A stretch of DNA of 64,000 bases from Brachionus manjavacas (taxonomy: Eukaryota > Rotifera > Eurotatoria > Ploima > Brachionidae): positions 1,550,001 to 1,614,000 of the forward strand of contig JAHQIY010000014.1 in assembly GCA_019054805.1 (NCBI GenBank). Direction: 5' to 3'. A program made the position numbers and the translations under genes. Below are positions 21,526-64,000 of the stretch, in pieces. Each line of letters starts with the position of its first letter. Positions within the stretch are counted from its first letter, which is position 1. A model generated the notes under the pieces. That model had not been told where the DNA came from and ran no database searches. It worked only from the letters and a program-made list of their open reading frames with translations.

Positions 21526-22500
21526 ATGAAGCCAATTTGTCAAATATTGATTATGACCATATTCTTAATGAATTTTGAACCAAATTTTTGTCAGCACATG
21601 AATCAATTTGAAAAACTTTGGCTAAACGGATCAACAGATTTGGCTGTGTCAGAACAATTTAGAAGCGCTTATTCCTTGTACACTGTTCAAGGTCTGAGTC
21701 TTCTAAAATGTGCCTCTTTTTGTTCAATAAACAATATTTGTCTCATTTTTTCGAAAAAAAAATTAGGAAATAATTCCGAATGTGAATTTTTTTCATCCCA
21801 AAATTTTGTGGAATCAGAAATTATTTCAAATGGTTATTCATCTGTATACAGAAAAAAGCTTGATATTTTGGAAACAACTGTTACAACTACAACATCCACT
21901 TCAACAACAACTACCGTTGATTATACATGTCTCGGTGGTGAATGTTCGTGTTTTGATAGCATGAGGTTATATGAAAAAATATTTTTTTATTTTTTAAGTA
22001 TTAAAATTTTTTAATTTAAAGTTATTTTTCAAAATCTTTGAGTAAATGTGTAAAATGTAGAGATGGTTGGACAGCATATAAAAATATTTGCTATCAGGGA
22101 TTCAGTAGTGTCAAAAGATGGCAAGACTTTGTCAACTATTGTATATCACTCAATTCAACACTCTTAATTGCAGACAGTTCTGAAAAATTTGATTATTTCC
22201 GTTCAGTTTCCAGAACTCTCACTGAGATTAGTAATAACCAACGCACTTGGGTAAATTTCAATTGTCTTCTTATTTTAAAAAATTATCTTATAACAAACCT
22301 TATACAAGGTAAATGCGAAATATGATGTGATAGGAGTTTTTGAATGGGAAAATGCAAAACCTATGAACACGACTTATTTTAGTCTTGGGTTATTAACTAG
22401 TTTTACTGGATGCTTTTGTTATTATACTACTCCATCATCACTTTTGACAATTACTGGATGTACGATGAAATCTAATGGAATTTGTGAATATAGTGATTGA
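21526..22500 (+). CDS. Secreted PAN + C-type-lectin-like protein, family member 1
   Basis: Exons 21526-21965, 22022-22250 and 22309-22500 join in phase to 286 aa. A signal peptide (MKPICQILIMTIFLMNF) is followed by a PAN/apple-like domain with LKCASFCSINNIC and ECEFF cysteines (residues about 35-115). Then come a short Thr/Ser linker, a CLGGECSCFD spacer and a CVKC knuckle. The C-type-lectin-like domain (about 155-286) has WTAYKNICYQGF, W..FVNYC, STLLIADSSEKF, QRTW, a GCFCYYTTP core and the final NGICEYSD. C-type lectins bind glycans or proteins outside the cell, but the Ca2+ motif WND is not evident. The ATG at 21526 is chosen because the paralogue at 23534 starts at the equivalent codon. 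Confidence 0.85.
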
Positions 22501-23533
22501 CTTGATTATCTTTCATATTTTTTTAAAATTTTATTTATCAAATATAACCTTTTTTTAATGATTGAAATTTTCTTAGAATAATTCTTCAAATGTTTTAAAT
22601 AAATAAAAATATGTTCTTTTTCTATTAATTGTACAGGAAATAAAATGATTACAATAGTAAAATGATGCAAATATTTTTTACGAACTGATCAATTCCAAAA
22701 CCCATTGATCAGATTTTTTACCATTTATAATTAATTTTTATTTATATAAACAAACTAGGTCTTAGACTAAAATCACATTTTACTGACAAAATTTAGAAAT
22801 CATTTTCTAATTTTTCAGTTAGACTCAAAAAAATAATTTTAATTTATTACTCAAATTCAAAACTTTAGAGTTTGTGTCTTTGTTCATTCAATTTATTAAA
22901 CTTAGTTTAGTTTTGAAATTTACAATATTTTGAAAATTTTGGAACGAATCTTGTCGACTGTAGTGTTTAAAAAAAATTTTTCTTTGGACAAAATATTTCT
23001 CATTTTTTCAACTTTGTGCAAAATTAAAAGGTAAATTGAGTGATCACAAAAATCAATTGAAAATCAAAATCTTATGTATTGTATTTTAATATAAAAATTT
23101 AAAAATAAAAATTCAACTTCAAAAACAAATTAATTAGACGAAATAACCAAATACCAGTCCATGTTTTTAACAAAGATTGACTTTGATATCTTTTTTGAAT
23201 GAGTCTATTGATTTAGAATAATTTTTAAATATACCAAATAAATCTAGAAAAATAGATTCAAAAAGTAAAAAAAACGCAATTAGTCTGTAAAAAAAAAAAC
23301 TTGAAAGAGAAAATAAAAATATAGAAATAATCACGAAGAAAAATGATTAATTAATTTTAAAAATCGAAAAATATAATAGATTTTTTTGGTTTTCATCGAT
23401 TTTTATTTTACCTCTTGAAAAAAAATTTAAGAGTAAATCAATTTTTTTAATAAAATCAAAAAGACGCAAATTTTTATAAATAAAATTATATTTTGTTTGA
23501 GTTAACATTGGAAAATATATCAGAAATAAAAAA
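22501..23533. other. AT-rich spacer between lectin genes 1 and 2
   Basis: No gene seen. Homology between genes 1 and 2 begins only a few bases upstream of the ATG (the AAATAAAAAAATGAAGCC box), so this spacer is not part of a duplicated unit. Confidence 0.5.
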
Positions 23534-24931
23534 ATGAAGCCAATTTGGCAAATATTGATTATGACCATATTCTTAATGAATTTTGAATCAAATTTTTGTC
23601 AGCACATGAATCAATTTGAAAAACTTTGGCTAAACGGATCAACAGATTTGGCTGTGTCAGAACAATTTAGAAGCGCTTATTCCTTGTACACTGTTCAAGG
23701 TCTGAGTCTTCTAAAATGTGCCTCTTTTTGTTCAATAAACAATATTTGTCTCATTTTTTCGAAAAAAAAATTAGGAAATAATTCTGAATGTGAATTTTTT
23801 TCATCCCGAAATTTTGTGGAATCAGAAATTATTTCAAATGGTTATTCATCTGTATACAGAAAAAAGCTTGATATCTTGGAAACAACTATTACAACTACAA
23901 CATCCACTTCAACAACAACTACCGTTGATTATACATGTCTCGGTGGTGAATGTTCGTGTTTTGATAGCATGAGGTTATATGAAAAAATAATTTTTTATTT
24001 TTAAGTATTAAAAATTTTTAATTTAAAGTTATTTTTCAAAATCTTTGAGTAAATGTGTAAAATGTAGAGATGGTTGGACAGCATATAAAAATATTTGCTA
24101 TCAGGGATTCAGTAGTGTCAAAAGATGGCAAGACTTTGTCAACTATTGTATATCACTCAATTCAACACTCTTAATTGCAGACAGTTCTGAAAAATTTGAC
24201 TTCTTTAGACCAATATCAAAAGATCTTACTACAATCAGCGGAAATCAGCGCACTTGGGTAATTTATTAATTGTTTATCTATGACGAGTCAAAGCTCTCTT
24301 ATATTAAAAAAAAACGCTTATTAATAAAAAGAATTGTATTGTTATTAAAATATTTAATTAATATGTAATTGTAATTGTATCAAAAAAAGATGAAATTATA
24401 AATTAGCAATTATGCAATTGAGTTCGATAATGATATTTGGATATCTTTATTTATTGGTTTATCTTTTCTGAGTAAAGCCCTTTCAGATAAAAAAAATTAA
24501 AAGTCAAGTAAAAATAAAATAAAATGTAAAATTGGTTATAATATAATATATAAGAAAATTAAAATAATACCAAAAATCAATTACAGGTGTAGCATGTTTA
24601 AGTATTGAACAGATCAAAAACGAAAGAAATTATATATCACTATATATCTTGATTCAAAACCTTTATTATACTCTTCCAACTGTTTTATAACTAATGAAAT
24701 TCAATTATTTTTTATTTATACTGAATATTTTAAATTAAGGTCTATGCTAAATATGATGTGATTGGAATTTACCAATGGATGAACTTGAATCCAATTAATA
24801 CATCATTTTTTGATAATGGATTAATATCGAGTAACACTGGATGCTTTTGCTTTTACACAACTCCTAGTTCTCTATTAATTATCACTGGATGTACTCTTAC
24901 TTCAAATGGTATTTGCGAATACGGTGATTAA
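23534..24931 (+). CDS. Secreted PAN + C-type-lectin-like protein, family member 2
   Basis: Exons 23534-23973, 24029-24257 and 24740-24931 have exactly the lengths of member 1 (440, 229 and 192 nt) and give 286 aa. Exon 1 differs from member 1 at only about six positions by eye, with similar identity through the codons SSEKFD in exon 2. Beyond that it diverges (FFRPISKDLTTISGNQRTW; exon 3 VYAKYDVIGIYQWMNLNP...GICEYGD). The second intron is 482 nt instead of 58, and the extra length is AT-rich with no recognised element. Domain order is signal peptide, PAN, short Thr linker, CVKC, CTLD. Confidence 0.85.
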
Positions 24932-25264
24932 TTTAGTTCAATTAAATAAATAAAAAGGAAATAAAGAAAAGAATGATAAATAGATTGTTGATTTTAATAG
25001 ATACAAAATATTAAATAAAAAATTATTTAATTTTAATAAAATTATTAATACTAGATTAAAAAAATTTGGAATTTAAGCTTGATAAAAATATTCACAGAAT
25101 TAACTTGATTATTTAGAATCTATACAAAACAACTAGTTGCATTCAAATCTTATAAAATAGCAGGTCTTGTCAATTTCATAATCTATAGATCACAAATTTT
25201 ACTCGCAAATTTTAACTTGTAAATTTAATGAACTAAATAAGAAAATTAAAAAAAAAAAGATGGC

Positions 25265-25450
25265 ATCAAATACATTCTGCACTATAAATAATCACAAGTT
25301 GCACTATAATATTTAAATTGCACTATAATATTTACATGCACTATATTAATCAAAGCTGCACTATAAATAACATTCTTACACTATAATATTCTTTAACAAG
25401 CACTAATATAATTTTTATTTTGCACTAAAATAATCTTTACTAAGCACTAA
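25265..25450. repeat. Array of GCACTA-type words beside the MULE fragment
   Basis: About ten copies of (T/A)GCACTA(T/A)AAT-like words occur at irregular 15-28 nt spacing in the same orientation, ending where the MULE transposase frame ends. They look like subterminal repeats of a Mutator-like element (transposase binding sites). The array is part of the element end by position; function is inferred. Confidence 0.6.
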
Positions 25451-25458
25451 ATTTCTTG

Positions 25459-26085
25459 TTAAGCCACTTGCGCCGCCAAATGAGATGCGTGCTCAAAGAC
25501 ATCTTTGCTCGCAAATTGCTGCATAATGACGATTTCATTCAACAACTGATCGCGATGAGTTTTCGTGACTTTTGACAAAGCGTCTTCCACCTTTGTTTTC
25601 ATGTGGTACCAACACATGATCCTCACTGGTTTAAAGCCGAGAGCTAATCCAAAGCCATTTGAAATAGCCTGAGCTGCGTCTGCCACTAAGTATTTCGGTT
25701 TGAAATCAACACCATGAAATTCTAAGACTGCTTTTTTTACAGCATTAAATGCAAAGGCGTAGTCTTCATCTTTTTCCGATTTGCAAAGAGCCAATCCATA
25801 AGGATGAAATGCTTTGGCTGCATCAGTTGTGCCGAGCAAAATAACCGAATAGCCGTTCCAGTTAAGTTTGTAGGTGGCATCGCAATGCACATGATTGTTG
25901 TACTGCGTCAAGCTGATAAGACGTTTCGACGTCCAGAACACGCGAACGGTAGATTCTTTAGTTTCAAAATTGTAGTCAATGTCATAGTCGTAACAGAACC
26001 CATCGTCCATTTTCGGTAGTTTATTGTCTACGCGATTAAAACGGGCTCTTTTTCGAACAGTTTAAAATGCCAATAATAAGCGTTT
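25459..26085 (-). mobile_element. Mutator-like (MULE) transposase fragment
   Basis: The minus-strand frame 26010-25459, open further upstream to about 26080 without a Met, encodes the MULE catalytic core. It shows HCDATYKLNWNGYSVILLGT (first Asp), HPYGLALCKSE, YLVADAAQAISNGF (second Asp) and the CWYHMKTKVED C/H motif. It stops before the final Glu region, so the copy is truncated at its 3' end, where GCACTA repeats take over. No zinc-finger or complete N-terminal part is present. Confidence 0.85.
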
Positions 26086-26229
26086 CATGATCTTTAGATC
26101 GGGAAATTGACAAGACCCAAAATAGCGCAATGTAAAATCTTGACCATTCTATTAGTCCATTGCTAAACTAAGCTAAAATTCTTTCAGATTAATAAAAAAA
26201 AAAATATAAAAGGTATAAAATGAAATGTA

Positions 26230-26360
26230 AAATAGAGTAAACAAATTTAATGGAGTTATGGTTTATTGGGTCTAGTAGGTAAGTTGAACCATAGTTGACA
26301 TATTAAGGGAACAATTTCTGTTCTCGAATTTTGTGAACTATTAGTTCGCTAGAATTTCTG
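26230..26360. repeat. Partial copy of the GGTGAAC fold-back repeat
   Basis: The sequence GGGTCTAGTAGGTAAGTTGAACCATAG and TTCTGTTCTCGAATTTTGTGAAC matches the left arms at 28600 and 47260. Only the left arm is present here. Confidence 0.55.
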
Positions 26361-26375
26361 GGTAAGATTTTAACG

Positions 26376-26910
26376 ACATTAGAACGTTTCATTGCAAGAC
26401 AAATCATAGCAAGGTGAAATTATCCATCTTCATAGCGAAGTAAGACAAAATTTACCTGGATTAATTGATTGCAAATAAAGTTAATTTAAAAAAAGTAAAG
26501 TTTAATTGTTAATTGAATAAAAAATAAGATAATTAAATTTAATTTAATGTCTAATCTTCAAAATTCAAAATTAAATCTTCAATATATTGACACAATTCTT
26601 CTTTATTATACATTTTACACAAACTTAGCAAACGTGATATAATCTTTTTTTTCATTTTCAGCCGGTCTATTAAACATTTCTCCAGCCCTTACTTTGATCA
26701 AATTACATTCCATAATTGATTGCTCTACTAGTAACTTCTCTAATAATTAGTAGAGAAGTAGAATGAGTTAGTAGAATTGCAAAAAATTACATGTAATGAA
26801 AAAAATTTAGTTGCTATGAAAAAAAAATAATGCAATGAAAAAATTAGAGATGCGATGAATTTTGTCTTGCAATGAAAAATAGCTTGCTATGAAACGTAAC
26901 AGAGCCGATT
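26376..26910. repeat. Possible old fold-back element with TTTCATTGCAAG words
   Basis: The block AACGTTTCATTGCAAGACAAA at about 26382 pairs in inverted orientation with sequence at 26850-26900 (TTTTGTCTTGCAATGAAA and ATGAAACGT). The middle holds a hairpin with CTTCTCT and AGAGAAG arms near 26733-26760. Arms are diverged. Confidence 0.4.
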
Positions 26911-26917
26911 TTAACAT

Positions 26918-27220
26918 CAGAGCCCGTATAGCCGATTGGTTTGCGTGTTAGTCATGCAGGTAGAGGATCGAGGGTTCGAAACCCGCTGAGGGTAAAAAAA
27001 CTTCAAAATATCTCTGCAATACGTGGCGAATTTTTAAACCTCTTTCATCATGAAAATAGGGGGACCAGTTTCGCCTGGGTAATAATTGCGGTGTAGATGA
27101 TCAACTCGATGCAGGAGCCTCTGTGTCAGATCGAAGCCGTTTCTCAAAAAGGTATTTGAAAAGGAGATGAGCGCTTCCCAATTATACACTAGAATAGAAA
27201 AGGGACAATCATTATTATTA
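26918..27220 (+). mobile_element. tRNA-derived SINE
   Basis: The head has a pol III A box (TAGCCGATTGG, 26929-26939) and B box (GGTTCGAAACC, 26973-26983) with tRNA-like spacing. An unrelated body of about 230 nt follows, ending in an ATT repeat. Candidate target-site duplications TTAACAT lie at 26911-26917 and 27221-27227. The cloverleaf has mispairs in the acceptor and T stems, so this is not a working tRNA gene. Both boxes are intact, so transcription is possible. Confidence 0.72.
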
Positions 27221-27227
27221 TTAACAT

Positions 27228-27616
27228 TTAGTTATGAATTTGTTCAGGTCCTGAAGCCGATTCATTTTTCAATCTTTTTAAAGTCATTTTTAAGAGGCCT
27301 TTAACTCAAACGTAAGGTGATTAAATTTTTGCTTGAGTTTTTGACAGCGAGTTTTCTGAAAACTTCTTTTAACTTTCCTGCATTCTTTTATCAGATTAAC
27401 AATGTTAGGGGGAAAGACTGCTTCTGTAGATTTTCTTAGATGGTAAGGAATGCTTTTATGTGAAGCAGAAATTATTTTTTATGTAGTTTTATCATTTAAT
27501 TAATCTATTGTGAGTGAATTTTTAGTGATATTAACTAAAGGGGCATTTAAAATCTCGCTGAATATGTCCCAGTTTGCTTTCAGTTAAATTTTTTAGCTCA
27601 GTGATAGTTCTGTAAA
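27228..27616 (-). mobile_element. LINE fragment (linker between endonuclease and RT), decayed
   Basis: The minus strand matches the LINE piece at 60094-60410 and the intact element at 2900-5900. Recognisable stretches are ISASHKSIPYH-like, PPNIVNLIKE-like and SASGPE at the end. Several stops occur. It abuts the lectin pseudogene at 27617, making a chimaeric junction. Confidence 0.65.
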
Positions 27617-28522
27617 CTGATTGTAGTAAGATCTTTTGATATTGGTCTCAAGAAGTCAAAATTTTCAGAACTGTCTGCAATTAAGAGTGTTGAATTGAGT
27701 GATATACAATAGTTAACAAAGTCTTGCCATCTTTTGACACTACTGAATCCCTGATAGCAAATAGTGTTGGAATCCGTACAAGCGGACACTTAACCGGTCA
27801 AAATTTTCAGAAACCGTGACCGTGTCCGCATTAGCCGGACAATCTTTAAGCGGACGGTCATTTGGCAGGTCAGCTAGGAGGTCTATTTTTTGGACCGCCA
27901 AAATAAACGGTCTAAAATATACGGGCGACCAAAAAACCGGCCTAAAAAATACGGACGGTCAAAAATACGGCCAAATTTTTGGCGGCCAGCCACTTAAATT
28001 GAAATTTTTTCGAAATAATGTTTTTAATTTTCTTTAAAAAAACTAATTAAAATGAAAAAAAAAAATAAAAAAAAATTTTCTTTATTTATTTTGAAAAGTT
28101 TTTTAAGATTTTTTTTTTCAAAAATTTACAAAAAATTTAGTTACCGCCCGCCAAAAAGCTGGCCTCTTATTATGCCGCCCGTTTTTTTAGACCGTTTATT
28201 TTGGCGGTCCAAAAAATAGATAGCCTAGCTGACTGGCCAAATGACCGCAAAAAACCGTCCGTGTTTTGAACCGGTTTGTCTTGACCGTATCCAACACTAA
28301 TAGCAAATATTTTTATATGCTGTCCAACCATCTCTCCATTTTACACATTTACTCAAAGATTTTGAAAAATAACTTTAAATTAAAAATTTTTAATACTTAA
28401 AAATAAAAAATTATTTTTTTTATATAACCTCAAGCTATCAAAACACGAACATTCACCACCGAGACATGTATAATCAACGGTAGTCGTTGTTGAAGTGAAT
28501 GTTGTAGTTCTAATAGCTGTTA
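27617..28522 (-). pseudogene. Broken lectin family copy 4
   Basis: Minus-strand remnants of the lectin family: the end of exon 1 (Thr linker and CLGGECSCFD) at 28522-28415, intron 1, and exon 2 interrupted by the hAT MITE at 27762-28299. Exon 2 stops at the TTIS codons (27617), where a LINE fragment begins. The PAN exon and exon 3 are absent. Where present it is almost identical to member 2, including its FRPISKDLTTIS patch (here FLRPISKD), so it is a young partial duplicate. Confidence 0.85.
27762..28299. mobile_element. Non-autonomous hAT-type palindromic MITE (538 bp)
   Basis: Ends are TAGTGTTGGA and TCCAACACTA, flanked by the 8-bp duplication ATAGCAAA (27754-27761 and 28300-28307). Because it interrupts a sequence known from paralogues, the empty site is visible and the duplication is certain. 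Arms of about 200 bp pair around an AT-rich centre and contain CGG/CCG-rich words such as TTTTTTGGACCGCCAAAATA. There is no transposase. An 8-bp TSD and this TIR fit hAT elements. Confidence 0.88.
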
Positions 28523-28594
28523 TTTAATATTAAATAAAAAAAAAATGAATTTAAAGGAAAAAAAAAGATAAAGAATTCATTTATATTAGAGTCT

Positions 28595-29495
28595 ATATTC
28601 ACTCGTTGAAAAACCGGGTCTACTCGGTTAGGTGAACTTTGGTTCTCTTATTATCCAAACAATTCTTGTTCTCAGGTTTTGTGAACTATTGTTCACTCAA
28701 TTTTTTTGTTCAAAACAGAATTAGGGTGAACCAAAATAGAATTAGACGAACAATTTTTAGATTATGTGAACTAATAGTTCACATCTTGAGTGAATTCAAT
28801 GTAAATCGACCGGATTTTTATTTTCTTTTTACTATTTTTTTTTTGGATATAAATAAAATTATAATAATTTATTCAAAATTAAATTAGATAAATACAATTT
28901 TGGATAAATTTTATTATAAGAAAAATGAAAAACATTTTATTTGAAAGAAAATTTATTAACAATATAAAGACTATTTAACTTATTTTACATTTTTTATACT
29001 TTCCTCTTTTTGAATAAAAAAATTTGATTTTTTAACAAAAATCTTTCATTCCAAATTTCAACCAATCAAAATATATGTAATTTTTAAAAATTCGGACGAT
29101 TCACTCACTATGATAAATTCTGAGAACAAGAATTGTTCCAGATACAGGTGAACCATTGTTTACCTCACTGACAAAAACCCGATAAACTTTGCTTTCATCT
29201 AATAAAATTGAAAATTATTTTTAAAAATGGAATACAGAGCGTAGATAGTTTTTAAACTACAAATATTATCTTTAAGGATCATCATATCACAAACATAAAG
29301 TCAAAATTACACTAAGTAAAACACTAAGTTTTTCATGCTTGCAATATTAACTTAAAAATAATTATTTTTTTGAAACTGAAAAAAATATTATATTTAAAAA
29401 ATTAATTAAAAAAAATTAATATTTGAAGCATCGCACTTTTTCAATGTTATTTCAAAATTGGATATTTTTGTAATTCAAACACAAAAAATTAAACC
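28595..29495. repeat. Dispersed ~0.9-kb repeat, copy A (with fold-back first half)
   Basis: A left arm (28605-28700: GGTTAGGTGAAC ... ACAATTCTTGTTCTCAGGTTTTGTGAAC) pairs with an inverted right arm (29100-29195). A 300-bp flank follows that is also found at 47930-48235 (TTATCTTTAAGGATCATCAT, TTTTTCAATGTTATTTCAA). Copy B lies at 47250-48235. It is non-coding. Confidence 0.75.
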
Positions 29496-29686
29496 ATTTT
29501 TATTAAAATTTATTTTAAAAAATAATAAGATCCAAAAAAATAATAAGGTTTTATTATTTTCTAAACCTTAACTCAAGTGATCAGAAACAGCTTATGAAAA
29601 TACTTGCCTTATAATCAAAAAAAAATTATATCAAAAAGTTTTAATATAATAATGAATGATTTAATATCCTTTTTTTTTAACATTCA

Positions 29687-30475
29687 TTAAGAATTAGAAT
29701 ATTCGCAAATTCCGCTTGTTGAAGAAAAACACCCCGAAATGTCTAAAAAAGAATGAGGAAACGTATAAAATCCAAAGCATCCAGTAAAAGTTGTTACACC
29801 CGCAACCAACGATGCGTTCAAGGGATTAAGGTTCATCCAGTTGAAAACATTAATTGTATCATATCTTGCATAGACCTAGTGATTAAAAGGGTAAAAAATA
29901 TTAATTTGAAATTAAAATTGTACCCAAGTTCGTTGATTACCACTAATAGATGAAAGATTTCTTGAGACTGTCTGAAAAAATCCAAATTTCTCATTATCAT
30001 CGGCAATTAGTAGAGTTGAATTAAGTGATACACAATAATCTACATATTCTTGCCAGGTTTTGGATTGCGGGAATGCTCGATAACAAATTGATTTATAAGG
30101 TAGCCACAAATCTCTACATTGATTTATGTTCGATTGATTGATTTTTTTTTTATAAAAAGATGAATAACCATTTGAAATAATTTCTGATTCCACAAAATTT
30201 CGGGATGAAAAAAATTCACATTCAGAATTATTTCCTAATTTTTTTTTCGAAAAAATGAGACAAATATTGTTTATTGAACAAAAAGAGGCACATTTTAGAA
30301 GACTCAGACCTTGAACAGTGTACAAGGAATAAGCGCTTCTAAATTGTTCTGACACAGCCAAATCTGTTGATCCGTTTAGCCAAAGTTTTTCAAATTGATT
30401 CATGTGCTGACAAAAATTTGATTCAAAATTCATTAAGAATATGGTCATAATCAATATTTGCCACATTTGCTTCAT
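29687..30475 (-). CDS. Secreted PAN + C-type-lectin-like protein, member 3 (linkerless)
   Basis: Exons 30475-29924 (552 nt) and 29875-29687 (189 nt) join in phase to 246 aa. The signal peptide and PAN half (MKQMWQILIMTIFLMNF to SNGYSS) are nearly identical to members 1 and 2. The Thr linker, CSCFD segment and first intron are missing: the PAN half runs straight into NQCRDLWLPYKSICYRAF. The lectin half is clearly diverged and ends GICEYSNS. It lies in opposite orientation to members 1 and 2. The hybrid structure suggests gene conversion of the 5' half onto an older lectin gene, or loss of linker and intron together. Confidence 0.85.
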
Positions 30476-31630
30476 TTTTATTTTGATTTTTAGTTCTTTT
30501 CCTCTAGAATCGTTTGAGAGATTAATTTAAAAATTTTCGGTTTAAATTTTTTGAGATTTTTCACAAATCTTAAAAATAGATTAAATTATTAATAAGTCAT
30601 TTAAAATTTAATGAATAAATAAAGTAAGGGAATTTAGTAATTTTAATCTTCCTTAGCTTTTTCTAAGAAAATTACTCCAAAACTAAATAAAAATAATATT
30701 TTTACTAACATCAATTAATATTTAATGAATTAAGATTTTTTTAAAATTTAAAAATTTAACTTGATTTTATTCTTGATATAAAATTAACTTTTTTGTTTTC
30801 CATTATTATTTAATATTCATTTACGAAAGCAACCATTTCTATTAAAAATTTAGGATTTTAAAACGTAAGTTATTTTTTTTTATTTAATGACACAATTTTT
30901 ATGCAATTACTAGCTGAATTTATTTAAAAAATTTACTCATAAACCTTTTTTTTTTTTTGATAATTCATTTCCCCAAATATTTAATTGTGTACAAGTTTTT
31001 TGTTATATTAATTGTATAATTGCTAATTAAAAATGTTTTACAAAATTTTAAATTGATTTCAAAATAAAAATTTCTATCATGTTGTTACGCTAGCTCATTA
31101 AAAATTAACGAAGAATTTTTTTTATTTTTTTTATTATTTCAATTGTTTAGAAATCAATTTTGTATCCTCACTTATTAAAGGGACCTTTTTCATTATTTTT
31201 TTTAAATTGATTAAGTAGCATTTAATAAAAAAAATTTATTTTAAATAAGTATATTACAATTATTATAACAAAAAGCACTACATATAAATTTCTTAAATTT
31301 TTTCAATTTTTGAATAATGAAAAATTAGTTTGGTTGGTGAATTAAAAATCTCCTTTATTTTAAAATTAACTAAGTTTAATAAATAATTTAACAAAAATTT
31401 AAATTTGAAATGCAGTTAATCATGCAAAATCATCTTAATCAGCATTTAAGACTAGTATTACATTCAAACATTAATTTGAAAGATAAAAAAAGGTCGAAAA
31501 CAAAAGATATTTTTGAAAGAAAAATTAAAGTATAATTGTTATTTTGTTTTGTTTTTATGTTTTTTTTTGTGCATTTTTTCCTTGAGCTGGAGTGGTGACG
31601 CATTCACCACTACACCTTTTTCTAAATGTT
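30476..31630. other. AT-rich intergenic DNA, nothing recognised
   Basis: Only low-complexity AT sequence and short frames without motifs. Confidence 0.5.
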
Positions 31631-31639
31631 TTTTTCTAG

Positions 31640-31860
31640 ACAACAAAAGTTTTAGAAAGTTATATAAAAAATTAAATGTACTAGACACCAAATTAATTTC
31701 CATCAAAATAGTCTTCAACGTGTTTGAATAGACTGGTAGAATGGTCAAATGTATGGATGATGAATTTTAATGAGGAAAAGTGCAAGATTATGGTTATCGC
31801 GAACAAGTATTTAATTTAAACGTAAAAATTAATGGTAGGCCACTCGGGAATACTGATAAA
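31640..31860 (+). mobile_element. Decayed LINE RT fragment
   Basis: Across frames, a W-S-x-V-W-M-M-N-F piece, then KCKIMVIAN and an NVKINGRPLGNT-like strand are visible. This is the region just after the RT YADD box. Stops are present. Confidence 0.5.
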
Positions 31861-33235: not shown

Positions 33236-34296
33236 AGTTTTATTTAAATTATTGATAATTATTTAAAAAAAAAATGTTTAACATTTTTAAACAAAATTTC
33301 TAAAACGTAAATACATGCAAAAATATTGAAATTATTTATTTAAAGAGTAGATCGAATATTGACAGAAAAAGAACAAAATGTTAAGTTTTTTATTTTTTAT
33401 CACTTAATATGACTTTATTTTTATTTTAATGCTAAAAATTTTCGAAATTACCAATTAATAATAATTAATTTTGCTCCAAACTTCACATCCGCTTTTTAAG
33501 GCATGATTGTACCTCTAAACATTGCTTGTAAATTTGAAATAATTACATCAACAACAAAACTTTGAAAAGGTGATCTAAAGTTCTCCAAAAACATAACACA
33601 AATAATCTTGAAGTAATGAAAAACGATTTAAATGATTTAAAATCATTACTAAAAGTTCTATTTTTGCACTTTTTTTTGATTATTTAGGAGTCCCCTAATT
33701 TTTTTAAATTAAAATCAAATTATATATAAAATGTAAAACCTCAGATTTTTTTAAATAAAAAAAATTTAAAAAAGATAAATTTTATTTTAAAAATCTTATT
33801 TGACAGATAATTATTTTTTAATTTAATAAATTGATTAAAATTGACAAATTATCAAAATTTTTTTATCTTTCCAAAAGGAAGTTTAAAAAATAATTTCAAT
33901 AAAGCATTTAATAAATTTTATTAAATATTTTTAGATGTATTTATTAGCTGAAAAATTTTATTTGTTGAATGATGCTTTTATAAACCTTGTTAAAAATATA
34001 TAGAAATTATCAAAAAATTATTGTTGTAATTGATTTATAATTTTTTTCCGCCAAAATTTTAGCTAATATAAAACGAGCTGGCTAAAAATATAGTAATTTT
34101 TCTTCATTTAAAAGCAATATTTTTCATGGCTCTTAGCGGACTGAAGATTAACTTTATCAATAATCACGCTTTAATATTTTAATATTAATGTTTCCATGAC
34201 AATTTAAAATAGATGTAAAGGTTAAGAAATTTTTTAATTAAAATTTTTCAAAAAAAGTAAAAAAAATAATCTTATTCGAAAATTGTAAAATACAAA
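33236..34296. other. AT-rich intergenic DNA upstream of ARMC9
   Basis: Nothing recognised. Confidence 0.5.
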
Positions 34297-37200
34297 ATGT
34301 CCGGCACAGTTGCATTAGAAGCTCAACTGAATGGTTTACTTAAAGAAGTAACTATGAATTATTAAGAGTAGATAAAAAAATTATCCTGTTTAAAGTACTT
34401 AGATCATTATGGCTTTGATTCAACTTTGGCCAAATTTACCGAAGAATGTTCTAGCAAAGGAAAATCAATTTTAGAAATAGAAAAATTAAATAACACAAAT
34501 CCCAAAATCAATCTAATCTTGGTAATTAGTTTCAATACCAGTAAAATTTAAGCTATTTTTTTTCTAGAATGAAATGATCGGCCTGTTCATACAAGGACAG
34601 CGGAAAGATTTTTTTCGCAGATGGTCTGAATACATTGCACCAGATTTAATAAACCAAGACTTACATGCTCAAAAGCTTGAACTCGAACTTAACATTCACT
34701 TTGCTGTTTATCCATTTAGAAAAAATGTTCGAACAAAAAAATAATTTGAATTTTTTTTTTTAATTTAAATTTTAGGTAAATTCAAGAGAAGGAATGAATG
34801 CGTTTAAGGAATACATAGAGAACAAAGGTAGAGTTTTATGCCAAACTAAAGAATTTTTGCCTTATTTCGGCCTTCCATATCACCAAAATCCACAAGACGG
34901 ATATCCTGAGCTTTTCAATGTACATAAACAAATTGTTTAAAAAAATTTATTAAAAATATTATTTTTATAATTATCCAGGAAGCATGGATTGCAGATTTAC
35001 AAAATAAACTAGAAGAATTTATGAAAAATGCCTTGAGAAATAAAAATCAGCCCAAATTGGTTGAGCTTGTATCCCAACAGTCTGATTCGAATTCCAATTT
35101 TGAAATAGCCAGGCTTAAGCAACAATTAGCCGAATCTGAAAAAAGAACCATGGCTTTTATGCGAAAATTCAACAGGGTCCAGTCTGAATACCACTCGTTG
35201 ATTGGCATTACAGCCGAGTTGGTTGATAGCCTGGAGAATTCTATTAACGGAAAACCTGTCAGCAATGAATACATACAAAATATATGCTTCAAGCTTTTTA
35301 ACACACAACTAAAACAAACCATTGATTTTACTAGACCTGGAACTGCCGGAGATCATATCCGCAACTCGCTCGCCTACCAAAAGCTCATACCGTAAAAATT
35401 TTAATTTTTAAATTTTAATTAAAAAAATTTAATTTTTAAATTTTAATTAAAAAAATTTAATTTTTACATTTTAATTAAAAAAATTTAATTTTTAAATTTT
35501 AATTAAAAAATTTTAACTTTAGAGAAAAATCGGATCTGAAAAAAAACATTCCGTCACTGGACTTTGTTAAAATAAAGCATGACTTGAGTCACCAACATGA
35601 AAAACGACAGCTTGCGCTTCTGCAAGCGCTGCGCTGGAGACTTACCAAAGCTGAATCAACTGAACAGCGGCAGCAAATTTTAACTTCTTACATAGCGTCA
35701 GATTTACTAAATTTCCGCAATGAAAAGCCAACAAACAGCATCATAGATCTACTCAAATCACCAAATGAAATGATTAAACAATTCATGGCTAGAATGATAA
35801 ACACTTTTGCTTCACTCAATTATGGTCGCAGCTATTTGGCATCAAGTCCAGATTTGGTCAAAAATATGATCCTGGCACTAAGGCACGAAAAAGAGGATAC
35901 TTACACAAGGAAAAATTTACTAGCCGCTCTACAAAAGTTGAGCTTAAGACACAATTTACATTTATTAATGATCAATGAGAATGCTATTGATTATCTAGTT
36001 GATCTTTTTGAAGACAACGAGTCCTTGAGCGACTATTCTTTGGAGTATGCCGTGGCACTGTTTATGAATTTGACCCTAAAAAAAGCCGGAAAATACAAAT
36101 GTGTCAATGATCATAAGCGAATACTTAAAGTTTTGACCGAATTGTTGTCAAATTCGTCAATTGAGGCTCAGAATTATATAAATGGCGCTCTGTATAGCAT
36201 TTTGACTGTTCCTCAGATAAGACTTTATGCCAAAGAAATTGTAAAATTTTTGCCTCTTAACTCTAGTGCTAATTTGAACTTTTTGTTTTAAAGAAATGCT
36301 TTGACTTAGAATAGGCCAAGGATCTTTGACAATTTAGAGAAAATTTCTTTTTAAAAAAATCTCTGTTTAACTTTTCTCCCAACAGTTTTGTGTCCCAAAA
36401 GATTTTTATGAGGGTTAACATTTTTTTTCGTAAAAATTATGTGGCCACTACAATAATTGCTTGGAACGGCAAAAAATTCAATTTTATGAATTTAGTGACT
36501 TCTACTTAAGCTTAAGCATGAAAAAATTCTGGGAGAAAGATTATTAAAAAAATATAAAACCTCTTTAGTGTAATGTATTTTTATCAAATTTTGATTTTTA
36601 ATAAAAAGCTGGTCAAAATTATTTAATCAACCCAAAAAATTTAAAAAATTTATAGAAGATAATTTTTGTAATATTTTCAGTATATTTTTTTACAAAAATT
36701 AGAAATTTAATTTAAAAAGTTAAAGATAACTTTGGTTCATATTTGACTCTTAACTTTTATTTAACTCTAATCAAATTTAATACACTTGTTTATTAGATTA
36801 AAAAAGGCAGTGATGGGTTTGAGTAATTTTAAGTGCAAAAATTTAATGTTTTTTTTTTTAAATATGCTTTTTTATCTATTAAAATTATGATCTTTTTGGA
36901 ATTACATTTTTCACTTGTGTTCAATTAGAAATTTTGTTTAAAGTAAGAATTGAATTTTTACGAATGACCAAATGTTAAAATTATCTCTAAATATGTCAAA
37001 CAAAAGATAAAGTCCTTAAATATTCCTTGGAATGAATTATTAAAAAATTATATTTTTTTAAAAATTGCTTTTAAACAAATTGTTCAAATTAGAAATTTAT
37101 TTTTTATCAAGATGACTTTTAAAGTTATGTATAATTTCAAGAATTTGGCTGAAGTTATCCAAAATTTTTCATCAGATGATGATTATGTGAACAAACAACG

Positions 37201-37957
37201 AGAAGTACTAATCAATAAAATAAATGAAGATTCTGACAATGAGACCGAGCAGCCAGATGACGAAGAGGATGATGAAGATGACGAGGAAGATGGCGATTTG
37301 ATGGAAAGAGAATTAGATGCTGGAGAGACAATTTTCAAGCAAACAGACGAAATTTCTGGAGAAAATTTGCTATTAAAATTTTATTCATTTATTAATCAAG
37401 GTAATGAGCCGAAAATGAGCCGTGAAGGGTCCAAACATAAATTAAAAAATGAATTATTAAATGAATCGACCCTTTTAAACAAGCCAACAACTCCATTAAG
37501 TGTGCGGAACAGCCAAGTTATTCAATCTAAAAATTTTGAGAAATCACAATCTAGAAACAATTCGTTATCTCAAAGTTTGGCACCTACAAAAAAAGATAAC
37601 CTAAAATCAAGTCTGTCATTCAATAAGACACAAAGTCGAGAAAAATTTGGAAAAAAGTTGACTGATTCAAAGAGTAAATCAAATTTTCCAAGCATAAATT
37701 CAAATGATATAAGAAGCATTGACAGCTATGAGCCAGTTAACGCAAATGTTCAAGATTCCAACGAGGCGTTTAGAAATAAGCCTAAAATTCAACGAACACC
37801 TGATCCAAGCACACGACAAAAATCTGTAATGGCGTCGTCAATTCAATCGAATTCGTCCTATGTACCAAAATATTCTGTCAGCGAGCCGAGGCCAAGTTCG
37901 GCAAGTTCGAATAAATCGAAAAACTCGCCTAATTCATCTACTTTAAATCAAAATTAA
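34297..37957 (+). CDS. ARMC9: ARMC9 homologue (LisH and armadillo-repeat ciliary protein)
   Basis: ARMC9 acts at the ciliary base and is a Joubert-syndrome gene in humans. Exons 34297-34347, 34396-34521, 34568-34726, 34776-34919, 34979-35391, 35523-36240 and 37112-37957 join in phase to 818 aa, close to the human length. Landmarks: LisH (LKEYLDHYGFDSTLAKF), FFRRWSEYI, LNIHFAVYPF, TKEFLPYFGLPY, a coiled coil, YHSLIGITAELVDSLE, TIDFTRPGTAG, LALLQALRWRLTKAE, the ARM repeats (FMARMINTFASL, LEYAVALFMNL, YINGALYSILTVP), the acidic DDEEDDEDDEEDGDLMERELD run and ISGENLL. The last intron is 871 nt, against about 50 for the others. Failure to splice it gives a stop at 36291 and a protein without the acidic tail. 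A second acceptor at 37141 is also in phase. Confidence 0.93.
35397..35515. repeat. Four-copy 28-bp tandem repeat in an ARMC9 intron
   Basis: About four copies of a 28-nt unit built of TTTAATTTTTAAATTTTAAT and then an A-run fill most of the 131-nt intron 5. One copy has a single A-to-C change (TTTTTACATTTT). This may vary in length between individuals. Confidence 0.85.
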
Positions 37958-38590
37958 AAAAGATCAAAATTTATTTTCACTGTGTTTTTTCTCACCTTTT
38001 AAATATATTCCCATTAAGATAATAAAATTTTTTAATTCACATTTTTTTTAAATAAATATAAAGAATGTATATTTTTAGAAAGTCGGGAGTAAATGAAAAT
38101 TTTTCTTTAACTCTTTCAAAGCTTAGAAAAATTATCAATATTATTTTATTTTCCTAGTTTATCAATATAACAATGTTCTGTTAAAATGAAAAAATCGTTA
38201 ATATTTTATTTATTATTTTATTAAAAACAACTAAAAACTACTACTACTACTATTAGGATGTGGTTAAAAAACATAAACTTGAAGTTCATGATCATGATCA
38301 CATGATCTAAACTTACTGGATTAATTTTGTTTTGCAAAATTTCAAAATATTGATTTAGATTTGATTTTACTTCCTAATTAAAAATTAAACAAACCATGTC
38401 TAATTAATTTTAAAAATTAAGTATTTAAAAAAAAATTTTTTTTTTACCAAATACTAAAAGTTTTGATTTGAAATTTACATTTGATCATTAACTTCAATTT
38501 TCCTAAAAAACCATAAAAGTGAAAACACAAAAAACAGATATTAATTAAAAATATTCTGTTTTATAATAAAATAATAAAAAATAAGGAATT
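37958..38590. other. AT-rich intergenic DNA
   Basis: A short ACTACTACTACTACT run lies at about 38235-38251, like the LINE 3' tails. Nothing else is recognised. Confidence 0.4.
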
Positions 38591-38599
38591 ATTAAAAAA

Positions 38600-39440
38600 A
38601 GTGATCTACGCGGCAAATGTTGAAGTTTAAATAAACTAAGGCTTTGGCAGACTTTGCTTTTCACCATTCCAAAAACTACATTGTCAATGACTGTTATAAA
38701 GCAATTTTCGCGCACTAACAGCATTAACTAATAATCTGTTTCATAATTTTACACAGCGATTTGTTAAGAAATTTAATCTCAAAGAGTCTCTGCGATTTAT
38801 TTCTCGGACTAATCAATTGTAATGTGATCTTTTTAGGTTTTTTACACCACAAGCGAACCGACACCATTTGTTGACGATATTTTTAAAAACCTTTTAAATT
38901 TTTGTATATTTGAATTAAGTCACAATTTAAACGACGATTTTTAAGTTTCATTAGATTTAAGTATTTCAATCTGTCTTCATGAGACTTGGTTCTGGTATAA
39001 TCAATCAGTTTTGTTGCTCTTCTTTGCACTTTTTCAAGAATTATAAAGTCTTTTTTTAAATTCGGACTCCAGGTTCCTACTGCATACTCCAGATGGGGTC
39101 TCACAAGTGATGTATAGTGAAGTCTTAATGATTCTCGGCTAAGGTTCTTAAAAGAATTTCTTATTTTACCTAATATTCGGTTAGCTTTCCTAGCTGCTAC
39201 AGTACATTGTTTATTTCATTTCAGATCATTTGTAATAAAAACACCCAAATCCTTTTCTTCTGTTATCTCCTCTAGGAAATGAAATAAATTTTGGTTTGAT
39301 AATAAGTATTTGGCTTTTTTTTCTCTTTCCTAGATACATTGCTTTTCATTTGTTCAGGTTTAGAATTGTTGACCAATTTTCTGTCCACTCCATTAGGAGA
39401 TCGAGGTCTTTCTGAAGTTCTAATGATCCTACGTTCGAGA
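38600..39440 (-). mobile_element. Decayed CR1/jockey-like LINE fragment
   Basis: The minus strand reads through the post-palm region: MEWTENWSTILNLNK, then EEKDLGVFITNDLK, NRILGKIRNSF, LVRPHLEYAVGTWSP, LEKVQRRATKLIDY, and a diverged tail to about 38600. The frame 39104-38883 is open; stops and shifts lie upstream (near 39225 and 39280) and downstream. It is a different subfamily from the copy at 1943. Confidence 0.75.
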
Positions 39441-40671
39441 ATTCGGAGAGACCAATTAATCAATCAATTAATTCATATTTACATTTAGTTCAAACTGATT
39501 TTTCATTTTTTGAAAACTTTTTTTTTTTTTATGTTTATCGGTGCAAAATTTAATCATGTGGCTAGGTCTAGGTCTCTAATCCAGCTCGCCAAGGCTTTGT
39601 CTAGATTATATTCTAAATGAATAAATATTTAGATATAAGGAACAAGTGTATGCTTTGCATATGGCACTAAGATTTTTGAAAAATTTAAAAATGAAGTAAA
39701 CGCATAAAAACTTCAGAGTGATACGTGTTCTCTCTTTAATTGGATTAATAAGGGGTTAAACAGCTTTAATGCTAACAGTTACAGTCCAGTTCTGGTACAC
39801 ATGAATTCTCATTTCAAAGACAAATAGTAATCAGAGACTCGAATTCTTTACCAACACTGTAATATAACGTCACACACAAAGACAAGAGGGACAACTTTAT
39901 CGCCTATAATAGGCACTCAACCTAACATAGTGTATGAAGGAAGATATTCGGAGTAAGAATTTAAACTAAAATAAAAAGGAGACACATCTTAACAAGAACA
40001 TATGATAATGAAGACTTTTTTAAATTGATTTATTTTTACTTTGCTGGAATAAATAGTAAAATGAATTACATTGTGATAAGCTTTTGGAACAGGTTACCGA
40101 TACTAGCAGAAGCTATCATAATATGTATCCTGTATTCCATTTGGTTCCGGGAACCGGAATTCACAATAGCTTACGATTATTATTACTATTTTAAGTTTTT
40201 TTATAGTGCGTTCAACTGCATCCTATTTACTAAACAATAAATAAAAGGAAATTTTTTTTAATAAAAATTGATTACAGTTTTTTCATTTAATTATTTTTCA
40301 AGAGTGATTTTAGACTAAACTAAATTTTTCAAAAGCTTAAAATTGTTTAAAAAATTTAAATTTAAAATTTAAAATTTTTCTTTTTTTATTATTAGCTCTT
40401 ATTAAAAGAAAATTATTTTTAATTTTCATTTCTAATTAAAAAATAAATAGAAAAAAGAATTTAAAAGAGCATAGAAATAAATAAGTGCACTTATTTTGGA
40501 AAATTTAATTAACAATTCACTCTTAGGAACTAATTGGAATGTTTTATTTTGTTTTATTAGAATAGACAAAAAAATCGACACCAGAATTTTATTAGTTTTT
40601 GAAGTGTTTTTTTAAATTTTTATTTTAAATATTAAGATTAAATACTGAAGGCCAAAAAATACAAATCAACA
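39441..40671. other. Intergenic DNA with a possible LINE tail
   Basis: Around 40060-40110 a plus frame includes VISFWNRLPILAEA, similar to the terminal NRVxxxWNRLPEEVV motif of the LINE at 1943. No other signal. Confidence 0.35.
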
Positions 40672-41603
40672 ATGGTTTCTATTTACTTTCTTTCTTTGAC
40701 AATTATGCTTGGCTTTGTAAAAAATGCCCAAGCTTTAGAGAACAGATTTTCAATTGTGAAAATAAATAACAGTAACAGCTTTGACTTAGCTCAAAATTTC
40801 AAAGCCAATTTTACAATCAACATTTTAAATGCCATTTCTAATTTAAAATGTTCAAGCCAATGTTCTTTGGAAATAAAATGTCTTTATTTTTCTTATTCAA
40901 TATCGAAATCATCTCAAGTTTGCTCCTTATTTTCAAGCGATAAAATTGATTCTTCTAACGTGATTTTTGATTTGAATTCAAAAATTTACAGAAAAATTTT
41001 GACTGAAAACGTTACCATTTTAACCACTGTACCAATGGATTACACTTGTGTGAATCAAGACTGCATTTGCAATGACGCTTTAAGGTGGTATGATAACGAT
41101 ATAAAACAAATTTAATTTTTATTTTATAGTTTTTATTCAACAATTCAAAATAAGTGTATTAAATGTAGAGATGGATGGTGGCCTTACAAAAATGTCTGCT
41201 ATCAAGGATTTGCTATGGCTCGAAAATGGACAGATTATGTGGCTTATTGCAATTCTTTGAACTCGACTTTATTGATGCCAATCGATGTTGACAAATTTAA
41301 TTATTTTGCTATTGTTGGCAGAAATTTGAGCTTAATTAATTCAGTTATACGTTTATGGGTATAATTTGAGAAACAAAAAATTTTAATTTAAAATAATTTT
41401 ATTAGGTGTCGGCAAAATATGATGTGCAGTCTGTTTATGAATGGACAAACGGGGTCCCTTTAAATAAATCATATCTAAACTCTATATTTTATGATTCATC
41501 TTCAAGTGGTTATTTTGCATATATAGTAGGAAATCAAGTTCCCCAATTAGGCTTAACGTTAACAACTTCAACTTCTAATGGAGTGTGTGAGTATTTCGAA
41601 TAA
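40672..41603 (+). CDS. Secreted PAN-like + C-type-lectin-like protein, member 5
   Basis: Exons 40672-41084, 41130-41358 (229 nt, as in members 1, 2 and 6) and 41406-41603 join in phase to 279 aa. Signal peptide MVSIYFLSLTIMLGFVKNAQA. The PAN-like region has NLKCSSQCSLEIKC and a later VCSLF. The linker is very short (ILTTVP), followed by DYTCVNQDCIC, CIKCRDGWWPYKNVCYQGF, AYCNSLNSTLL and the terminal NGVCEYFE. Exon 3 lacks the GCF cysteine (it reads SSGYFAY), so one canonical lectin disulphide may be absent. Protein sequence is well diverged from members 1-3. It is tail-to-tail with member 6. Confidence 0.82.
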
Positions 41604-41884
41604 AAGAAAATAGTGGCTAAATTAATTAATTTTATATTCTGTGTTATGTTCAAAATACATAGCTTTTGTACCAAATTAAGATTTTTTTCTTCTAAATTTA
41701 AATAGTAAATTAATTTCATTTAAAAAAACTTAAGAATTTATTAAATATCTTTTTTATTTAATAAAAAAATCAATTTATTTTTTAATAAAAAAAAAAGCAT
41801 TTTAATATTGATTTATAAAATTAATAAAATATTTTTATTGAAGAATCTAGTATAGATTTTTAGACGATAAAAAATTATTTTAAT
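41604..41884. other. Short convergent spacer between lectin genes 5 and 6
   Basis: AT-rich; must hold both polyadenylation regions. No other signal. Confidence 0.5.
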
Positions 41885-44025
41885 TCATTCTGAATATTCG
41901 CAAATTCCACCAGATCTTAAGCTACACCAATAAATACCTAATAAAGAATATGGAGTTGTATAAAAAGAAAAACAACCGGTGAAAAAATTGAATAAGGATG
42001 GCACAAGAAATGATCTATTCAATGACTGTTTATTCACCCATTCATAAACTCCAATCCTGCTGTACTTGGCATTTACCTTATTACAAACAGTTAAAAAATT
42101 TATATCAATTTCTATTAAATATATAAAATTTACCCAAGTTCGTTGATTTCTGTTAATTGATGTTAAATTCTTTGATACTAGCTGAAAAAAATTAAATTTT
42201 TCAGATTCTTCTGTTATCAATAAAGTAGAATCTAATGAAATACAAAAATCAACATATTCTTGCCATCTTTTCTGACTATCAAATGCTTGAAAACAAACAC
42301 TTCTGTATGCAGACCATCCGTTTTTACATTTGATGCATTTATTTTTACTCTTTGAAAAATGACTTTTTGAAAAAAAGTTTATCTAGATTCAAATAAAAAA
42401 TAAAAATGAAAAAACCTGTTTTTGTCAAAACATATACATTCTTGGTTTACACAAGTATAATCAGGTGTAGTTGTAGTTGATGTAGTTGAAGTTGATGTAG
42501 TTTCAGTTGATGTAGTTTCGGTTGATGTAGTTTCAGTTGATGTGGATGTGGTTGATGTGGTTTTAGTTGATGTGGATGTTGTTGATGTAGTTTCAATTGA
42601 TGTAGTTGTGGTTGATGTGGATGTGGTTGATGTGGTTTTAGTTGATGTGGATGTGGTTGATGTGGTTTTAGTTGATGTGGATGTGGTTGATGTAGTTGTG
42701 GTTGATGTGGATGTTGTTGATGTAGTTTTAATTGATGTAGTTGTGGTTGATGTGGATGTGGTTGATGTGGTTTTAGTTGATGTGGATGTGGTTGATGTAG
42801 TTGTGGTTGATGTGGATGTTGTTGATGTAGTTTCAATTGATGTAGTTGTGGTTGATGTGAATGTGGTTGATGTGGTTTTAGTTGATGTGGATGTGGTTGA
42901 TGTAGTTGATGTGGATGTGGTTGATGTAGTTGTGGTTGATGTGGATGTTGTTGATGTAGTTTCAATTGATGTAGTTGTGGTTGATGTGGATGTTGTTGTA
43001 GTTGAAGTAGTTGTAATTGATGTAGATGTAGTTTCAATTGATGTAGTTGTGGTTGATGTGGATGTTGTTGATGGAGTTGTAGTTGAAGTAGTTGTAATTG
43101 ATGTAGATGTAGTTGTGGTTGATGTGGATGTGGTTGATGTGGATGTGGTTGATGTGGATGTGGTTGATGTGGATGTGGTTGATGTGGATGTGGTTGATGT
43201 GGTTTTAGTTGATGTGGATGTGGTTGATGTGGATGTTGTTGATGTAGTTTCAATTGATGTAGTTGTGGTTGATGTGGATGTTGTTGATGGAGTTGTAGTT
43301 GAAGTAGTTGTAATTGATGTAGATGTAGTTGTGGTTGATGTCGATGTGGTTGATGTGGATGTGGTTGATGTGGATGTGGTTGATGTGGATGTGGTTGATG
43401 TGGTTTTAGTTGATGTGGATGTGGTTGATGTGGATGTTGTTGATGTAGTTTCAATTGATGTAGTTGTGGTTGATGTGGATGTTGTTGTAGTTGAAGTAGT
43501 TGTAATTGATGTAGATGTAGTTACAGTTGATGTAGTTGTAGTTGATGTAGTTGTGGTGAATGTGGATGTGGTTGATGTGGATGTAGTTGTAGTTGATATG
43601 GTTGTGGTTGATGAAGTTGGAGATGTAATGGATACTGTATTTGAAATCTTTTCTATTGTTATGTCTTTTTCACATTTGATATCCTTTTTTAAATAGATGA
43701 GGGAATTTTGATCATATGAAATATCACTTTGAGTGATGCGTTTTGATTTGAAAAACTCACAAGTTAACCTTTTCTCATAATTTTTGAATATGTATGAAAA
43801 ACATTTATTAATAGAGGAACAAATAGAAGCGCATTTTAATAAACTAAAATCGTTAATTGAAAAAAGAGAAAAATTTTGCTTAAAAGCTTCACTCACATAG
43901 AATTTCTGTAACTCATTTATTTTTAACTTTTCATATCTATTAATCTCTTGTCCAAAATAAGCTTTAATAATAATTAAGAACAAAAAATTTATTATTAAAC
44001 CATAAATGCCATTTAGGCGCCTCAT
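41885..44025 (-). CDS. Mucin-like PAN + C-type-lectin-like protein, member 6
   Basis: Exons 44025-42416, 42362-42134 (229 nt) and 42076-41885 (192 nt) join in phase to 676 aa. A signal peptide (LIINFLFLIIIKAYF) and a PAN region (LLKCASICSSINKC, LTCEFF) are followed by about 370 residues of Thr/Ser with scattered Lys, Glu and Ile. Then come DYTCVNQECICFDK, CIKCKNGWSAYRSVCFQAF, the lectin domain with FTGCFSFYTTP, and the terminal GICEYSE. The Thr/Ser region should be densely O-glycosylated, giving an extended mucin stalk between the two binding domains. It is secreted; no membrane anchor or GPI signal is seen. A mucus, tube, egg-coat or adhesive role would fit but is only inference. Confidence 0.87.
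42470..43610. repeat. Coding minisatellite (Thr/Ser stalk of lectin member 6)
   Basis: The repeat is built from 6-nt words GATGTG, GTTGAT and GATGTA, arranged in higher-order units of about 45-90 nt. Some long blocks recur, for example the block at 43059-43270 recurs at 43272-43480. Only the minus frame with Thr/Ser is real. Length is likely to vary between alleles. Confidence 0.92.
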
Positions 44026-63900: not shown

Positions 63901-64000
63901 TTTATTTTTAAATTCAAATCGTTTTTGAAATAATTTTGTATAATTTTTGTCAACTTTTTATTTTCAGCAATTAACAATAATAATAGAAAAATTTAAATTC

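Follow-up and report, generated by a model that had tools for sequence, protein, structure and literature searches.

Which parts of a modular extracellular protein are held constant, and which are left to change, when several copies of its gene lie close together? The question is raised by a 64,000 nt stretch of the rotifer Brachionus manjavacas (contig JAHQIY010000014.1, positions 1,550,001 to 1,614,000; called the window below, with positions counted from its first base). Five intact genes (M1, M2, M3, M5 and M6) and one broken copy (M4) are found there, built on one plan, which in M1 comprises a signal peptide (by hydropathy), a PAN-like domain, a 21-residue stalk, a cysteine knuckle and a C-type-lectin-like domain (CTLD). 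A preliminary description of the window had proposed this plan, and had seen in it two conserved binding domains joined by a linker of freely evolving length. Taking anatomy and gene conversion together, and leaving the role of the proteins aside, we consider it likely that the locus holds a family of probably secreted Brachionus proteins (signal peptide, PAN, Thr/Ser stalk, knuckle, CTLD) among whose members gene conversion has acted.

Gene models built with GT..AG introns and uninterrupted reading frames, whose exon joins rest on sequence, returned the same five intact genes and broken copy as the preliminary description, and reproduced its exon sizes exactly (Table 1). Its outer limits, 21526 and 44025, are the start codons of the two outermost genes. 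Exon 2 measures 229 nt in all four three-exon members of the window (M1, M2, M5, M6) and likewise in M7, a member lying outside it, so that the fixed exon plan extends beyond the window. The N-termini are hydrophobic, and the proteins end 2-3 residues past a final CEY. M3 is without the first intron, the knuckle and the Thr/Ser stalk; its PAN is M2-like and its CTLD divergent.

The constancy of the front proved to be of a particular kind. From the start codon to position 22192, intron 1 included, 9 of 667 positions distinguish M1 from M2 (8 substitutions and 1 gap), with zero differences over 22008-22192. Over the rest of exon 2, beginning at 22193, 24 of 58 positions differ, a jump for which the Fisher P is 2×10−21 (computed with 10 differences instead of 9). 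The shared block runs through PAN, stalk and intron 1 and covers, from its 5' end, 171 of the 229 nt of exon 2; no meaningful alignment is obtained for the 5' flanks of the two genes (36 nt, 47% identical) or for the beginning of intron 2 (40 nt, 47.5%). Exon 3 is 69% identical; its synonymous divergence (dS) is about 1.9, that of the PAN 0.02. In rounded counts, 1 of 59 synonymous sites has changed in the PAN and 29 of 43 in exon 3. The M2-M3 pair behaves similarly (3 of 59 versus 21 of 42), whereas M1 and M7 lack this contrast (37 of 55 versus 24 of 42, P 0.40). M3 matches M2 at 98.2% over 336 nt, with its six differences confined to the two ends, while its CTLD is about as distant from that of M2 as the M7 CTLD is (dS 0.91 and 0.82, from two computable segments).

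Because synonymous sites, and for M1/M2 intron 1 as well, share in the identity, and because it stops abruptly, the PANs of M1, M2 and M3 look recently copied. These patterns show old paralogs with a new shared front, best read as the outcome of recent block gene conversion or of another block exchange with the same effect. On the predicted gene models, one PAN is joined to three different CTLD ends (M1, M2, M3). M3 would be a chimera of a copied PAN and a divergent CTLD, so that the stalk may be missing for reasons other than simple loss. Here the preliminary description did not hold: the two binding domains are not uniformly conserved, since the PANs of the window are 28-39% identical once pairs within M1-M3 are excepted, the likeness within M1-M3 appears to reflect recent copying, and the CTLDs have diverged. 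Divergence of the CTLDs appears to have proceeded under coding constraint, for which exon 3 speaks with a ratio of nonsynonymous to synonymous divergence (dN/dS) of 0.12-0.59 (15 pairs, six members) and no computable value above 1. Two points count against too firm a view of this history. With dS near saturation the dN/dS values are rough and some pairs are uncomputable, and unequal crossing-over, or duplication with partial replacement, would be inseparable from conversion in the one assembly that was used.

The broken copy M4 may preserve the trace of an earlier exchange inside exon 2. Its two M2-like pieces are interrupted in exon 2 by a 538-bp multi-copy element, with at least 103 genome matches (best 40 of 744 candidates scored), which from its ends and target duplication (Table 1) we take to be hAT-like and non-autonomous. 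Neither a PAN exon nor an exon 3 was found when the span 27300-29600 was compared with M1, M2 and M3. The M2-type sequence of exon 2 runs directly into a 23-nt piece of M1 type: 27619-27597 (minus strand) matches 22204-22226 (plus strand) with 2 mismatches, for 0 such matches expected (100 shuffles). We considered whether M3 and M4 might be the two parts of a single inverted copy of M2 type, interrupted by an insertion, as the M3 block stops at M2 base 23865 and M4 begins at M2 base 23881. From about 28525 onwards, multi-copy repeats occupy the gap between M3 and M4, and the M3 CTLD appears old and constrained. These repeats, which the truncated edge of M4 abuts, are nested over 28525-29527 and include a roughly 336-bp element whose many copies across the genome are 95-99% identical (at least 91 matches, best 40 of 1541 candidates scored). 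A MULE transposase-like frame (25459-26058, minus strand, 35.0 bits) lies between M2 and M4.

A wider scheme can be drawn from the exchanges, in which recurrent block conversion would keep one PAN-stalk cassette near-identical, neighbours would carry old divergent CTLDs, repeat expansion would tune the stalk, and the exchange point in exon 2 would be a repeated recombination site. We find this scheme quite unlikely as a whole; if true, the rotifer would display several recognisers on one docking module, a constant front with a variable back.

Table 1. Members of the family and features within them (window positions, unless a contig is given).
Feature	Position	Strand	Details
M1	21526..22500	+	exons 21526-21965, 22022-22250, 22309-22500 (440/229/192 nt); 286 aa
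M1 block near-identical to M2 23534-24199	21526..22192	+	putative conversion tract; abrupt end at 22193
M2	23534..24931	+	exons 23534-23973, 24029-24257, 24740-24931 (440/229/192 nt); second intron 482 nt; 286 aa
M4	27597..28521	-	linker start to exon 2 in two M2-like pieces, 28521-28300 and 27761-27617
Element in M4	27762..28299	-	ends TAGTGTTGG/CCAACACTA; 8-bp target duplication TTTGCTAT
M3	29687..30475	-	exons 30475-29924, 29875-29687 (552/189 nt); 246 aa
M3 PAN-coding block, M2-like	30144..30463	-	differences at 30464 and 30157 with none between; four at 30157-30150; divergent from 30143
M5	40672..41603	+	exons 40672-41084, 41130-41358, 41406-41603 (413/229/198 nt); 279 aa
M6	41885..44025	-	exons 44025-42416, 42362-42134, 42076-41885 (1610/229/192 nt); 676 aa
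M6 stalk tandem repeat	42466..43613	-	15-nt unit, 76 copies (alternatively 51 nt x 22); encodes most of the stalk
M7	C14:1521411-1522389		28 kb outside the window; exons 449/229/189 nt; spliced frame open
M8	C14 near position 301,000		PAN and mucin repeat, then stop

The stalk varies widely in length. Counted as the stretch that separates the PAN from the knuckle (or, in M3, from the CTLD), it has 8 residues in M3, 14 in M5, 21 in M1 and in M2, 33 in M7 and 408 in M6, and reaches 1027 in M8, also outside the window. The linkers of none, 6-12 and about 370 residues given in the preliminary description are in substance the same, the window values of 8, 14, 21, 21 and 408 following from another definition of the stalk. 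Threonine and serine make up 87% of the stalk in M6, 62% in M1 and M2, 55% in M8, 33% in M7, 29% in M5 and 12% in M3. The long Thr/Ser tandem repeats of M6 and M8 are of mucin type, a name for which the stalks of M1 and M2 are too short. In M8 the stalk consists of 31-residue repeats (93 nt x 32.5, with 0% indels). Since the repeat units of M6 and M8 are whole codons within one exon, length can change without damage to frame or splicing. On this point the preliminary description is well supported, although the length, 8-408 residues in the window, may be set by selection or by drift.

Drift is central to the alternative that survives best, namely an ordinary birth-and-death of a secreted lectin-like family, in which repeats drift, conversion occurs by chance, and neither stalk nor mosaic is selected. 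We give it something short of an even chance. The 15-nt and 93-nt units are simple, and such simple repeats can expand neutrally; a decayed copy, M4, is present, and gene conversion is common among neighbouring copies. Yet the frame stays open through the repeats, which span 1148 nt in M6 and about 3 kb in M8, and the CTLDs are under coding constraint. Intact frames and constraint argue against pseudogenes, but would leave a neutral stalk length untouched.

How far the family extends was asked of the whole genome (114 Mb, 61 contigs), where only the best candidates were scored, so that member counts are lower bounds. At E values up to 10, the PAN of M6 matched at least eight loci, namely M7, M8, the five intact genes of the window and a weak one with stops (E 0.17). 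With the PAN of M7 the same seven genes came out, and nothing further among the matches listed. CTLD queries added M9, on contig C17, and weakly matched other CTLDs. In M9, by a putative exon join, a first exon that is PAN-like but unsupported by Pfam is followed by an acidic stalk and an intronless CTLD with the same knuckle. No CTLD was seen in the next kilobase after the stop of M8, and the CTLD queries gave no match nearby.

The assignment of the two halves to PAN and CTLD is supported at the level of the family. The cut-off of Pfam PAN_1 (PF00024, 21.4 bits; M6 scanned in two parts, the halves of M7 separately) was exceeded in two of eight members, M7 (30.6 bits) and M5 (22.1), and that of Lectin_C (PF00059, 22.6 bits) in three of seven, M7 (32.5), M1 (28.5) and M9 (25.8). 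As M7 passes both, it links PAN and CTLD within the family. Among the spliced window proteins the support is partial, with M1 over the cut-off for Lectin_C and M5 for PAN_1, the rest falling below or giving no match. M7 and M5 are also over the cut-off (31.3 and 27.1 bits) among the 29 matches listed by a genome-wide PAN_1 scan, and M7 has, besides its PAN_1 match, a PAN_3 match of 15.0 bits, below the 21.1 cut-off. Four PAN cysteines are invariant in all seven aligned members (M2, near-identical to M1, being omitted). Against the PDB, the PAN profile found seven matches up to E 10, the best being Toxoplasma MIC4 (E 1.2×10−4), with a microneme antigen and plasma kallikrein (E 4) also included.

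In the CTLD, cysteines C1, C12, C29 and the last C are present in all seven members, and the inner pair in six, M5 being without both; the pairing, including the long-form N-terminal pair, we presume by analogy. The CTLD profile matched 75 distinct PDB sequences at E ≤0.001, with NKG2D and the PLA2 receptor as the best, and we take the 60 matches listed to be CTLD proteins throughout. The knuckle, C-x4-C-x-C...C, is found in M1, M2, M5, M6 and M9, not in M3, and in reduced form in M7; no EGF match in Pfam appeared up to E 1 in the scanned members. A Lectin_C scan of the genome exon by exon (25 matches, E ≤0.001) has the M9 locus but no window gene among the matches listed, probably because introns split the domain in the window genes, which came out with single-protein queries.

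Several results weigh against these assignments. PAN_1 in M8 reached 16.3 bits only, below the cut-off, and M1, M2, M3, M6 and M9 gave no Pfam PAN match; Lectin_C remained below its cut-off in M2 (20.1 bits), M3 (20.1) and M6 (20.5), and M5 had no Lectin_C match in the Pfam scan. Three of the seven PDB matches of the PAN profile are Kelch-domain proteins. AlphaFold models of the M6 PAN (5-row alignment, mean pLDDT 40.3) and of the M6 CTLD frame (9 rows, mostly exon pieces, 34.3) are too low in confidence to show a fold, and the signal peptide was judged from hydropathy alone.

Five other PAN loci of the 29-match scan were inspected for long frames. In one of them (C6:1929500-1934500; frames 447-1439 and 1883-2494) a Thr/Ser-rich stretch stands beside PAN-like cysteine segments, with no CTLD in the part read.

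Calcium-dependent sugar binding by C-type lectins follows a well established rule, the presence of an EPN/QPD motif. No motif of this type ([EQ]P[NDSH]) occurs in any of the seven CTLDs, which makes classical calcium-dependent sugar binding by the family unlikely; with the usual motif missing, 'lectin' would here name the fold only. W.D matches occur in M1, M2, M5 and M9 only, near domain residue 22 and outside the long loop region. Elsewhere in the same genome, three of the best eight Lectin_C loci show QPD, QPS or EPN, and five are without (some stretches being partial).

We suppose that the proteins would be secreted and act as soluble extracellular adapters. The PAN would dock to a shared partner (a mucus, coat or matrix glycoprotein), the stalk would be O-glycosylated and would set reach and hydration, and the diversified CTLD end would contact a variety of targets without using the usual calcium site. 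Cross-linking of a coat or mucus is our first choice of role, though less likely than not, and immune recognition the second. The mucus, glue, egg-coat and immune roles that the preliminary description had named are a matter of inference from the sequence.

As secreted pattern-recognition proteins of immunity, they would use the PAN as a common effector or anchor, their CTLD ends would bind different microbes, and exchange between copies would create variants as well as spread them. Diverged CTLD ends on a common front and a local family with a broken copy would suit this, and parts of Gerdol 2022 (PMC8878817) discuss invertebrate C-type lectins in microbial recognition together with the Brachionus set. 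Nevertheless, the EPN/QPD-type motif is missing in all seven CTLDs, the CTLD ends are constrained with no computable dN/dS above 1, and the members are few, and we hold the immune explanation to be rather unlikely.

Mate-recognition or gamete-coat proteins evolving in concert would be a third possibility, which we regard as very unlikely. Its model is mmr-b of the same species complex, whose concerted evolution with changes in repeat number, reported in the available part of PMC3495898, is a local precedent for homogenisation; in addition a gene of the C-type-lectin family was named as candidate male receptor in 2009 (PMC2746195, in excerpt). But the mmr-b primer matches sit on another contig, C7, and the 2009 candidate lectin is not identified in that excerpt. 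The 26-nt mmr-b primer MMRBF, published for Brachionus manjavacas, had one exact and two one-mismatch matches in the genome, against 0 for the reversed control, which points most likely to Brachionus, and probably to the plicatilis complex, as the source; a second published primer, for GDP-mannose 4,6-dehydratase, gave no match at up to one mismatch. These three matches (L063, L064 and L065; C7:5.02-5.12 Mb) lie within about 106 kb, and bear on whether mmr-b copies cluster, a question left open in the accessible text of PMC3495898. The weakest alternative, that the identity of M1, M2 and M3 is an assembly artefact by haplotype or repeat collapse, might be entertained for copies within 9 kb in a single assembly, but is highly improbable, as the 5' flanks and second introns of M1 and M2 do not align, the identity ends at different points in M1/M2 and M2/M3, and small differences persist within the tracts.

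To our knowledge, no mosaic front block is known in the nematode proteins that carry a CTLD with a CW/PAN-3 domain. The long-form non-calcium CTLDs of NKG2D, CD69 and CLEC1B belong to type II membrane receptors; NKG2D gave the best PDB match and the other two are among the matches listed, a sequence-only resemblance that includes the missing sugar-site motif, whereas the rotifer proteins look secreted and have a PAN in front. PAN/apple domains (PF00024) are resembled in the four invariant cysteines and in the Pfam matches of M5 and M7, though most window members lie below detection. The combination of domains, called unusual in the preliminary description, needs qualifying in that CTLD and PAN have already been reported together from nematodes: in the part of PMC5297725 at hand, C. 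elegans has 16 genes of the class '1-2 CTLD + 1-2 CW (PAN-3)' and the next four species 0. Like the rotifer family, this nematode class IV joins a CTLD to a PAN-type module (PMC5297725, same part). In the portion of PMC6742230 consulted, PAN and lectin proteins appear as separate proteins.

For Brachionus itself, the sections of Gerdol 2022 (PMC8878817) at our disposal describe secretory C-type lectins that often have a single carbohydrate-recognition domain preceded by some 100 residues of N-terminal sequence 'with no recognizable conserved domains', and others with an EGF-like domain immediately before it. In the present family, by contrast, the N-terminal region is PAN-like by Pfam in two members. 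The family may contribute to those 'no recognizable domain' entries, and may thereby supply a recognisable domain for a part of the Brachionus lectins described in print as lacking one. It also provides a small local CTLD family where the abstract of PMC8878817 reported no lineage-specific expansion. As a compact natural series, it offers one plan with stalks of 8-408 residues, and one PAN with three CTLD ends, in a genus amenable to RNA interference, which has already been used in Brachionus according to the part of PMC2746195 seen.

Finally, the surroundings of the genes may be described. An ARMC9-like frame (35503-36288, plus strand, ARM-repeat match of 110.9 bits) separates M1-M4 from M5-M6, so that the family is not one uninterrupted array. 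An innexin frame (44442-45857, minus strand, 160.4 bits) directly adjoins M6. In M6 itself, the second intron (42077-42133, minus strand, 57 nt) is in frame and stop-free, and its retention would insert 19 residues in the CTLD. Farther along the minus strand, two similar frames resemble 7tm chemosensory receptors (PF08395, cut-off 26.6 bits), 57309-58526 below the cut-off with 22.6 bits and 62572-63954 above it with 34.0.

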